Of a stretch of DNA of 64,000 nt, positions 4,917 to 34,064 are shown one piece after another. This DNA comes from Candidatus Rokuibacteriota bacterium (lineage in GTDB: Bacteria; Methylomirabilota; Methylomirabilia; Rokubacteriales; CSP1-6). The DNA lies in assembly GCA_016866775.1 (NCBI GenBank), contig VGLJ01000014.1, positions 1-64,000 of the forward strand, read 5' to 3'. How positions within the stretch are numbered: position 1 is the stretch's first letter; each line of letters starts with the position of its first letter. The notes under the pieces are model-generated. The model was given only the letters and a program-made list of their open reading frames with translations. It did no database searches and had not been told where the DNA came from. The position numbers and the translations under genes are program-made.

Positions 4917-5465
4917 CTAGACTCTGAGCACCTCGGCCCCCTGGCCGGCTTCCAGTTCGCAGGCGTTCACGGTCATGCAGAGGAGGCTGTAGTAGCCGAT
5001 GGCGCCGGTGAGCTGGATGAACTCGTCGTCACCGAGGCGCGCGCGGAGCGCCTTCGCCGTCGCGTCGTCGACGCGATGCTTGCGCAGGAGGTCGCGCGTG
5101 AAGTCGATGATCTGCGCGTCCTCGGCCGGGACGCCGCGCGAGTGGTTCTCGCGGATCGCGCTGATCGTGCTCTCGGGGACGTTCTGCTTGCGCGCCCCGC
5201 CGGTCTGGGCCCCCCAGACGTAGAGCGCCTCGAACTCGCGCGCGACGGTCATCGCGGCGAGCACGCGCACGCGCATGTCGAGCGAGCCTTCGAAGCGCAC
5301 GTAGGCGCCGAGGTGCGCCACGCGCTCGGCGATCTCGGGCGAGTGGAGGAACATCGTGAAGGGCCCCTGCTGGATGCCGCCGCGGCTCTTGATGATGCCG
5401 TCGACGATCGCGTGATGCTTCGCGGGGACCTGCTCCTTGCTGGTGATCGGCGTCAGTCGTGCCAT
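4917..5465 (-). CDS. Carboxymuconolactone decarboxylase (CMD) family protein without CxxC
   Basis: A 182-residue all-helical CMD/AhpD-superfamily protein. It has the family pattern of an N-terminal 'GPFTMFLHSPEIAERVAHLG' stretch, a central 'REFEALYVWGAQ' helix and the 'ENHSRGVP' turn. The redox CxxC motif of AhpD is absent, so a decarboxylase or hydrolase-like role is likelier than peroxidase activity. It lies 10 bases upstream of the amidohydrolase and 4 bases after the ABC permease gene, so it links the importer to the hydrolase. This supports one operon for uptake and breakdown of a cyclic carboxylic compound (inference). Confidence 0.85.
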   Translation of the reverse strand: MARLTPITSKEQVPAKHHAIVDGIIKSRGGIQQGPFTMFLHSPEIAERVAHLGAYVRFEGSLDMRVRVLAAMTVAREFEALYVWGAQTGGARKQNVPESTISAIRENHSRGVPAEDAQIIDFTRDLLRKHRVDDATAKALRARLGDDEFIQLTGAIGYYSLLCMTVNACELEAGQGAEVLRV

Positions 5466-6309: not shown

Positions 6310-7302
6310 TCAGGCGTTCGCCTTGCGCTGGAGCATGATCGTCACGATCAGGACGCCGCCGATGAGGAGCGGCAGGAAGAGCGTCGCGACGGCCGCGGCC
6401 TCGCCGAGCCGGAGGTTCACCATCCCCATCACGTACACGAGCATCGTGTAGACCATGGTCGCGTCCGACGGTCCGCCGCCGGTGAGGAGATAGACGGGCT
6501 CGAACGCGTTCGCGGTCTGGATCGTCGTGAGCAGCAGGACGACGCCGATGATGTGGTAGAGGCTCGGCAGCGTGATGTGCCGGAACTGCTGGACCCGTGA
6601 GGCGCCGTCGACCTGCGCGGAGTCGTAGAGCTCCTGCGAGATGGTCTGCATGCCCGCGAGGAACGAGATCGCATAGAAGGGGAAGTTCCGCCAGGCGTGG
6701 GCGACGATGACCGACGCCATGGCGGTGCTGCGGTCGGAGAGGAAGGCGATGGGCCCGCCGATGATCCCGAGGTCCATCAACGCGTAGTTGATCAGCCCGG
6801 CCAGCGGATCGTAGAGCCACCGCCACACCAGGTAGACGACGAACGCCGGCATCACCCACGGCAGCAGCAGGAACGCGCGGAAGAAGTTCCGGCCGCGGAT
6901 CTGCTGGTTCAGCACGAGCGCGACGGCCATGCCGAGCACGAACTTGATCGCCACCGCGCACACCGTGAACACCACGGTGTTCGTGACGGCGGCACTGAAC
7001 TGCGGCCACGCGATGACGTACGCGAAGTTCCGGAACCCGACGAACTGCCCCGGATTGCCGATCGTCTTGTCGGAGAAGGCAAGCCAGATCGCGTAGAAGA
7101 ACGGATACAGGATGAGCCCGAGCAGGATCGCGACGGTCGGCGCGAGCAACCCCATGCCCTGGAGCGCCTCGCGCGTGCGGGCGGAGAGCCGCCGTGACCG
7201 ACTCGGATGGGGGGTGCGAGGCGCACCCCCCAAGCCCCCCGCGCTTCGGGCCGGGAGTGAATCCCGGCCCTCCGCGGGTGCCGGGCTAGTGACGGTAGCC
7301 AT
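6310..7302 (-). CDS. Sugar-type ABC transporter inner-membrane permease (MalF-like)
   Basis: A 330-residue permease. The core from about residue 45 has six helices and the EAA loop 'YDSAQVDGASRVQQFRHITLP', as in MalF/UgpA. The first 45 residues are low-complexity, rich in Pro, Arg and Gly, and are encoded by a palindromic repeat (7205-7285). The functional start could therefore lie downstream, near the basic segment 'RRLSARTREALQG', but I see no start codon clearly better than the ATG at 7302, which sits 2 bases after the binding-protein stop. It pairs with the MalG-like permease; the imported solute is unknown. Confidence 0.88.
   Translation of the reverse strand: MATVTSPAPAEGRDSLPARSAGGLGGAPRTPHPSRSRRLSARTREALQGMGLLAPTVAILLGLILYPFFYAIWLAFSDKTIGNPGQFVGFRNFAYVIAWPQFSAAVTNTVVFTVCAVAIKFVLGMAVALVLNQQIRGRNFFRAFLLLPWVMPAFVVYLVWRWLYDPLAGLINYALMDLGIIGGPIAFLSDRSTAMASVIVAHAWRNFPFYAISFLAGMQTISQELYDSAQVDGASRVQQFRHITLPSLYHIIGVVLLLTTIQTANAFEPVYLLTGGGPSDATMVYTMLVYVMGMVNLRLGEAAAVATLFLPLLIGGVLIVTIMLQRKANA
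7205..7285 (-). repeat. Palindromic repeat, family B, inside the permease coding region
   Basis: On the minus strand this segment has a 9-bp perfect stem with loop TTCAC (7248-7270), then the shared 15-mer GGGGGGCTTGGGGGG, then a 10-bp perfect stem with a 3-base loop (7209-7231). The same order (stem with a TTSAC loop, the same 15-mer, then a C/G-run stem) recurs at 32622-32680. Here it overlaps the 5' end of a permease gene and encodes its odd N-terminus. Confidence 0.6.
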
Positions 7303-32688: not shown

Positions 32689-33279
32689 TCAGTCCAGCTC
32701 CAGGAACTCGTTGTGCCAGTTGAACGCGACGCACTGGGTGAAGCGCCACGTCAGCTCTTCGATCTCGCGCGGCGAGAAACGCTCGCGGAGCTTCGCGTGG
32801 AGCCGCCGGCGCAGCGTGTGGACGACGCGCGGGTGGACGTCGGCCGCGCGCGCGTGCACGCCGCTCCACACGAGGAAGTACGCGAGGTCGATCACGAGGC
32901 TTTCGTCCGCGGAGAATCCCGCGCGCGCCGCGAACGCGTAGTCTTCCGGCAGCGGACCGAGGTCGAGCTTCGCGAGGGTCTCGAGCTGCATCGGGGAGAG
33001 CCCGGCCGCCTCTGCCAGAGGCGTGTGCTGTCCGAGTCAGTACGCGCAGCGCGTGAGCGTCGAGACGACGACGATGCCGATCTCGTACTGGCGCGCGGCG
33101 ACCGGGCTCGTGCGCTTGAGCTCGAGGAGCTGGCCCCACACGTGGCGGAAGATCGTCGGCGAATTCGCCATCGTCGCCCACAGGTGGCGGAACGACGGCG
33201 CGTGACGCTCGCAGTCGTCCCAGAGCGGGCGGAGATCTTCGGGGAGCTGATCGCGCGTGACGAGAGGCAGCAGCGGCAT
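32689..33279 (-). CDS. AhpD/CMD-family protein with in-frame TGA at the CxxC cysteine: candidate selenoprotein
   Basis: From ATG 33279 the frame encodes an AhpD/CMD-type protein and reaches 'STLTRCAY', then TGA (33037-33039), then, in the same frame, 'LGQHTPLAEAAGLS' and the rest of the fold to TGA at 32689 (about 196 residues). Family members read CxxCxxxH here; TGA occupies exactly the second Cys, four residues before the His, the position of the attacking thiol in AhpD. A SECIS-like hairpin follows. Reading TGA as selenocysteine gives CxxU. The alternatives are a nonsense mutation (TGC or TGG to TGA) or sequence error; the downstream half is intact with no other stop, which argues for readthrough. 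No selA, selB, selC or selD is in the window. Confidence 0.6.
32995..33039 (-). promoter_or_regulatory. SECIS-like hairpin just downstream of the in-frame TGA
   Basis: In mRNA sense, 13 bases after TGA a perfect 7-bp stem CGCCTCT/AGAGGCG (33017-33023 with 33007-33013) closes a GGC loop, so G occupies the first two loop positions and the loop begins 20 bases after TGA. A lower stem GGACAGC/GCTCTCC (33027-33033 with 32995-33001) has six of seven pairs. These spacings fit the known bacterial SECIS pattern. GC-rich sequence forms hairpins easily, so this is supportive only. Confidence 0.5.
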
Positions 33280-33308
33280 CGGGTGATTATAGGGGTGGAG
33301 GGCACGGC

Positions 33309-34064
33309 ATGGACCTCGAGCTGAAGGGCAAGGTGGCGGTCGTCACGGGCTGCAGCGTCGGCATCGGGCGTGAGACGGCGAAGGTGCTCGCGGCCGAAGG
33401 CGCGCAGACGGTCGTCGTGGCCCGTCGCGCGCACTTGCTGGAGACGCTGCAGAAGGAGATCGAAGGGCAGGGCGGGGCGAAGCCGCTCGCCGTGACGCTC
33501 GACCTCTACGACCGCGCGGCGGCCGAGCGCCTGCGCGACGCCGTGCTCGGCGCCTACGGCCGCGCGGACATCCTCGTCAACAACGCGGGCGGCTCACGCC
33601 CGATGCCGTGGGACTCGCCGGACGACGCGTGGGACGAGTCGTTCTCGATCAACTTCACCGCCGTGCGGAAGCTCACGCAGGCAGTGCTCCCCGGCATGAT
33701 CGAGCGCCGCTGGGGCCGCGTCGTGTGCGTCACCGGCACGGCGGAGCCGGCGCAGGTGAACGCCGCGGTCGCGGCGAAGGCCGGGGTGCACGCGTGGGCG
33801 AAGGGACTCTCGCGCGAGATCGGCAAGCACGGTGTGACCGTGAACTGCGTCGCGCCGGGCCGTGTCCACAGCGAGCAGATCGACGCGAAGCTCCACCCGA
33901 CGCCGGAGAGCCAGGCGGCGTTCACGCGCGCGAACATCCCGATGGGCTATTTCGGCGAGGCCGTCGACGTCGCGTGGACGGTGGCGTTCCTCTGCTCGGA
34001 GCGCGCGCGCTACGTCACCGGCGAGCGCATCCACGTCGACGGCGGCATGCACCGTGCGGTGTGA
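33309..34064 (+). CDS. SDR-family protein with atypical active site
   Basis: A 251-residue SDR. The cofactor motif 'VTGCSVGIGRE', an Arg after strand 2 ('VVARRAHLL', suggesting NADP) and 'NNAGGSRP' are intact, as is 'VTGERIHVDGGM'. At the active site, however, the Ser stretch reads 'CVTGTAEP' and the YxxxK motif reads 'AVAAK': Thr replaces Ser and Ala replaces the catalytic Tyr. This may be a non-redox or altered-mechanism SDR. It is divergent from the selenoprotein candidate with only 29 bases between starts. Confidence 0.85.
   Translation: MDLELKGKVAVVTGCSVGIGRETAKVLAAEGAQTVVVARRAHLLETLQKEIEGQGGAKPLAVTLDLYDRAAAERLRDAVLGAYGRADILVNNAGGSRPMPWDSPDDAWDESFSINFTAVRKLTQAVLPGMIERRWGRVVCVTGTAEPAQVNAAVAAKAGVHAWAKGLSREIGKHGVTVNCVAPGRVHSEQIDAKLHPTPESQAAFTRANIPMGYFGEAVDVAWTVAFLCSERARYVTGERIHVDGGMHRAV

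Follow-up and report, generated by a model that had tools for sequence, protein, structure and literature searches.

An AhpD/CMD-fold protein gene with an in-frame TGA, probably read as selenocysteine, in a Rokubacteria genome

AhpD-like and CMD-domain proteins carrying selenocysteine in a CxxU motif have been known since 2005, when they were described from the Sargasso Sea; they are abundant in GOS data (PMC1088965, PMC2398784), and are catalogued in PMC13188914. Delivery of Sec-tRNA by SelB via a hairpin is the established mechanism of selenoprotein synthesis in bacteria, and the bSECIS model describes the hairpin as a stem of 4–16 bp closed by a loop of 3–9 nt, located 16–37 nt from the UGA, with G within the first two bases of the loop and a minimum free energy of −7.5 kcal/mol or lower (PMC13188914). 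The same work mentions a MAG of Methylomirabilota for which 63 selenoprotein genes are predicted. The catalytic relay of AhpD from M. tuberculosis is made by residues E118, C130, H132, C133 and H137. PA0269, a P. aeruginosa protein, showed low peroxidase activity, and a weakening effect on catalysis has been ascribed to its Tyr (PMC3141380).

The DNA analyzed here, called the window, is a stretch of 64,000 nucleotides from Candidatus Rokuibacteriota (assembly GCA_016866775.1, contig VGLJ01000014.1). An AhpD/CMD-like gene spans positions 32689–33279 of the minus strand. The frame read from 33279 to 32689 measures 196 codons plus a terminal TGA (32691–32689), and contains one internal TGA, codon 81 (33037–33039), translated as U. 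The codon is found in the context RCAY[U]LGQH, or CxxUxxxH, exactly where the second Cys of the CxxCxxxH motif is expected. An initial annotation had described one frame running through this TGA with family sequence on both sides, and the substitution of the second Cys. Both statements hold true on the minus strand, the strand having been left unstated; reading of 32689–33279 on the plus strand was rejected, as it yields no family sequence. Under standard annotation the gene is cut off at 80 residues, and the putative enzyme is missed. Judging from the sequence, we put at roughly 0.92 the probability that the gene encodes a 196-residue selenoprotein with the AhpD/CMD fold, in which UGA81 is read as selenocysteine.

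Base composition is coding-like on both sides of codon 81, G+C at the three codon positions being 0.68/0.47/0.93 before and 0.74/0.43/0.92 after the TGA. The sequence TATAAT (33286–33291, minus strand), located six bases upstream of the ATG, may serve as −10 box, and suggests that the mRNA is leaderless; no Shine-Dalgarno-like motif was seen by inspection of the sequence upstream of the ATG. The gene and an adjacent SDR gene are arranged back to back, with starts 29 bases apart (33279–33309).

The protein was assigned to the CMD family by searches in which Cys was written for Sec. Both the Pfam CMD model (PF02627; 27.4 bits, cut-off 23) and the AhpD core domain model (TIGR00778; 33.2, cut-off 27.8) were matched above threshold, and the peroxidase-related model TIGR01926 was matched below it (33 bits, cut-off 81.8), over the N-terminal half only. 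The AlphaFold2 model is all-helical (pLDDT 86, pTM 0.85). The best Foldseek matches are the CMD/AhpD proteins 3lvy, 6k40 and 2ijc, retrieved with probability 1.00 and modest support (E ~1e-3, TM 0.58–0.63); the debrominase Bmp8 was retrieved as well. Cys78 (33046–33048), the partner and putative resolving Cys of CxxU, Glu66 (33082–33084) and His85 (33025–33027), all on the minus strand, are invariant in the subfamily alignment. Glu66 and His85 are predicted proton-relay residues, corresponding to Glu36 and His55 in PA0269, and to Glu118 and His137 in M. tuberculosis AhpD, according to the spacing in PMC3141380. The array E66-C78-Y80-U81-H85 is spaced exactly like E36-C48-Y50-C51-H55 in PA0269, and has the Tyr in common with it. 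At 4917–5465 of the window, minus strand, resides a second CMD-fold protein, which lacks both Cys (EFEALYVWGAQTG) and has no TGA.

These features suggest how the protein may be made and work. SelB carrying Sec-tRNA(UCA) would bind a stem-loop found 13 nt downstream of UGA81, and because of this binding the codon would be decoded as selenocysteine. Sec81 and Cys78 would form a CxxU redox centre, activated via a relay made by Glu66, Tyr80 and His85. The product could either reduce peroxide, with Sec81 attacking the substrate and Cys78 resolving the intermediate, or carry electrons as a selenenylsulfide/selenol-thiol carrier; the CMD fold hosts further chemistries. Taken alone, the peroxidase part of this scheme is given slightly better than even odds. 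The other course, that Sec is inserted in an enzyme which is not a peroxidase, such as a thiol/selenol oxidoreductase, a dehalogenase-like protein or another CMD-fold enzyme, is a serious possibility, rated somewhat below even. Several activities are found within the CMD fold, as the match to Bmp8 illustrates, the TIGR01926 score is below cut-off, and the Tyr is shared with the poorly active PA0269. The genes around the locus encode Sir2, amidase, FKBP, CO-dehydrogenase-like and SDR proteins, and no AhpC-like gene was found among the neighbours examined, which also favours a different activity. Conservation of the full AhpD proton-relay set and the score above cut-off in the AhpD core domain model argue on the contrary for a peroxidase. 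The neighbourhood was tried as a clue to function and rejected, being not conserved: the amidase gene is common to only two close relatives. PADLOC gave no hits.

Homologues were searched in 195 related genomes and in GTDB contigs. Seven full or near-full homologues were identified, five of which, 61–69% identical, reside in Candidatus Rokubacteria/Methylomirabilota. The remaining two were found in a cyanobacterial contig (Symploca) and in a Tectomicrobia MAG. Members of the subfamily measure 196 residues and share the C-terminus AFNWHNEFLELD. Codon 81 is TGC or TGT in six of the seven (L025, L027, L028, L029, L037, L038), and TGA in one, from Rokubacteria GWA2_73_35 (L026/L032), the only further member of the subfamily with TGA. 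The alignment proposed in the initial annotation as a check thus returned Cys codons or TGA, and no unrelated residue, at this site in the closest relatives. In a tree built for the direction of the Cys/Sec change, forks within the subfamily lacked resolution. No homologues were found in IMG/VR and plasmid collections. The Tectomicrobia homologue (L038, 2921–3510), a Cys form, is frameshifted after the CxxC motif, and may be either a decayed gene or the result of an assembly error.

The stem-loop downstream of codon 81 (33007–33023, minus strand) is made by a 7 bp stem, CGCCUCU/AGAGGCG, and a GGC triloop. It starts 13 nt past the UGA, and 20 nt separate the UGA from the loop. In the minimum-energy fold it is flanked by a lower stem (32995–33033, minus strand), in which residues 33033–33027 and 33001–32995, GGA.AGC/GCU.UCC, form six of seven pairs; the form of this lower stem is not conserved in the TGA relative. 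The length of the upper stem, the loop, both distances and the six of seven lower pairs agree with the initial annotation. The hairpin satisfies every constraint of the bSECIS model (loop 3 nt, stem 7 bp, GGC, distance 20 nt, −18.5 kcal/mol). Its folding energy is not significant in G+C-rich DNA (z −0.9 to −1.4); the z-score was therefore dropped as evidence, and comparative tests were used instead. A search of Rfam matched no family, and gave nothing relevant to SECIS.

Stems of at least 7 bp with a G-containing loop, placed anywhere in the allowed range, follow 2% of all TGAs of the window and occur in 1.3% of the sequences obtained by recoding the gene synonymously. A stem with the exact geometry follows one TGA out of 1402 in the window, codon 81 itself, and was found in none of 50,000 such recodings. 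This test of exact placement is post hoc for the window gene alone, but an independent check is provided by another CMD subfamily from this phylum. In this second subfamily, the TGA-bearing members L044, L046, L049, L050, L053 and L060 carry the hairpin CCGCUUC-G[UG]C-GAAGCGG at the identical distance. Hence a spacer of 13 nt, a 7 bp stem and a 3 nt loop containing G are found in 8/8 TGA forms of the two subfamilies. In a ninth TGA form, of a third type (L054), a 7 bp stem with GGC loop is located two bases further downstream. By contrast, at the place of the hairpin eight Cys forms feature 0–1 pairs each, and none has a stem; one (L038) has an unrelated 8 bp stem elsewhere within range. In the eight aligned elements 100% of the cells are paired, and 5/7 pairs are changed on both sides, against 0–1 in slid controls; much of this contrast falls between the two subfamilies, and the independent changes are therefore few. 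Between the window gene and L026 one pair is compensated (U-A to G-C). As to the search for a bacterial SECIS that had been advised, the hairpin goes with TGA forms, not with Cys forms. selB is also present in the genomes that carry the Rokubacteria Cys forms, and loss of the machinery therefore does not explain them. A single subfamily displays Sec and Cys forms side by side, with the hairpin present in the Sec forms and lacking in Cys forms whose genomes also have SelB.

The genome from which the window derives is a MAG of 5.13 Mb (159 contigs, 97.5% complete), and carries full-length genes for selenocysteine synthesis and insertion. selA (592.3 bits, cut-off 268), selB (380.8 bits, cut-off 242) and tRNA-Sec (70 bits, cut-off 47; anticodon TCA, UCA in the RNA) lie all inside 5 kb of contig C43, and selD (335.5 bits, cut-off 125) resides on contig C31; both contigs are tied to the window by binning only. 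The SelD gene (L019, G000:C31:24695–25639) is itself of the selenoprotein type, with an in-frame TGA in the context CAG[U]ASK. A formate dehydrogenase-like gene (L094, G000:C26:33477–34235, minus strand) similarly features a TGA in ARV[U]HSATVPALG, followed by a stem-loop. The search for selA, selB, selC and selD suggested at the outset found all four, including selB and tRNA-Sec, the absence of either of which would have told against the selenoprotein. Leaving aside the putative enzyme activity, the initial view that the gene makes a selenoprotein is supported by the Cys/TGA swap, the TGA-linked hairpin and the presence of these genes.

CMD domains (PF02627) were found at 22 places in the genome, and exactly one TGA interrupts nine of them. 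In 9/9 the TGA is aligned with the second Cys, and is followed by a 5–7 bp stem with G within the first two bases of the loop. The motifs are NCFD[U], GCRY[U], ACHY[U], GCPF[U], ACEY[U], GNTH[U], DCDY[U], GSAY[U] and RCAY[U], the last being that of the window gene; the eight further genes (L083–L090) reside on contigs C18, C11, C7, C6 (two genes), C8, C54 and C25. The partner Cys is missing in two, the GSAYU gene of contig C25 and the GNTHU gene of contig C54. Among the matches listed from sister genomes, the GSAY[U] protein has TGA in 38/38, and in the 17 closest of these the position three residues before the TGA is occupied by S, A, T or V, and in none by Cys. The GNTH[U] protein has TGA in 41/41 of the matches listed, and a hairpin in 20/20 of those read; it is apparently a Sec-only family in the lineage. 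The GNTH[U]A CMD protein (L116–L135 and other matches) measures 82 residues, and is 81–90% identical in most sister genomes. Two of the paralogues (L083, L089) are fusions of two CMD domains, which feature CxxU in the first and have lost both Cys in the second (SGFGTAFH, RYMIDHH). The existence of a lineage-wide, selenium-dependent repertoire of CMD redox proteins, with at least nine paralogues, some acting with one selenol and devoid of a resolving Cys in the motif, is judged fairly probable on these patterns. Having nine CMD genes with putative Sec at one site, the lineage is well suited to asking what benefit selenium brings to AhpD-type chemistry.

That the gene is a young, dead pseudogene, generated by a nonsense mutation of TGC to TGA, is very unlikely, even if the two codons differ by one base and Cys is found in most members of the subfamily. 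A second lineage, with 68% identity, shares the TGA at codon 81, and both sequences carry the 7 bp G-loop hairpin, which is found at that place in no Cys form. A stem change is compensated, the identical swap marks eight other CMD genes of the genome, and the Sec machinery is intact. Codon bias and purifying selection persist downstream: relative to L026, dN/dS is ~0.40 in the part upstream of codon 81 and ~0.49 in the part that follows it, as would be expected of similar constraint on the two sides. The initial annotation had held a chance mutation to be less likely, and the TGA in the second lineage, the hairpin and the downstream constraint bear this out. The misreading of TGC as TGA in sequencing or assembly is less credible still: the sequence comes from a single MAG, but an error would not make a matching hairpin, and TGA recurs at the codon in an independent assembly (L032), as in the eight paralogues. 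Reassignment of UGA to one of the common amino acids, namely Trp, Gly or Cys, would account for the clear read-through of codon 81 but is the least likely of these readings, since UGA is otherwise a stop here, ending the gene itself, 330 of the 332 window TGAs lying in frames open on both sides are devoid of two-sided coding-like composition (of the two that have it, only codon 81 combines it with a SECIS-like hairpin, and that at 6312, minus strand, is an ordinary stop, without hairpin, between two adjacent genes), and canonical tRNA-Sec, SelA, SelB and a Sec-type SelD are all present.

Read as a selenoprotein, the window protein shares with the known CxxU proteins membership in the CMD/AhpD family, Sec at the position of the second Cys, a bacterial SECIS close downstream, and the existence of Cys homologues. 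With PA0269 and M. tuberculosis AhpD it shares the relay spacing E-x11-C-x-[YH]-C-x3-H and the all-helical fold (PMC3141380), but it differs from both in having Sec for the second Cys, and a length of 196 residues. In contrast to the known AhpD-like selenoproteins, listed under TIGR01926 in PMC13188914, it scores below the cut-off of that model. None of the named selenoprotein models of NCBIfam was matched by the protein at E 1e-3. NF053654 (GroundWater_YciW) and NF041047 (GSU3128) are CMD-type selenoprotein families distantly related to the paralogues of contigs C25 and C54, which are therefore also of a known kind; the window gene itself is matched by neither. A rich selenoproteome in the phylum is likewise not new in itself, given the MAG with 63 genes already mentioned. 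With a TIGR01926 score under the threshold and no match to a named selenoprotein model, the window protein belongs to an unnamed subfamily, yet one of a kind, the CxxU AhpD/CMD selenoproteins, known since 2005.
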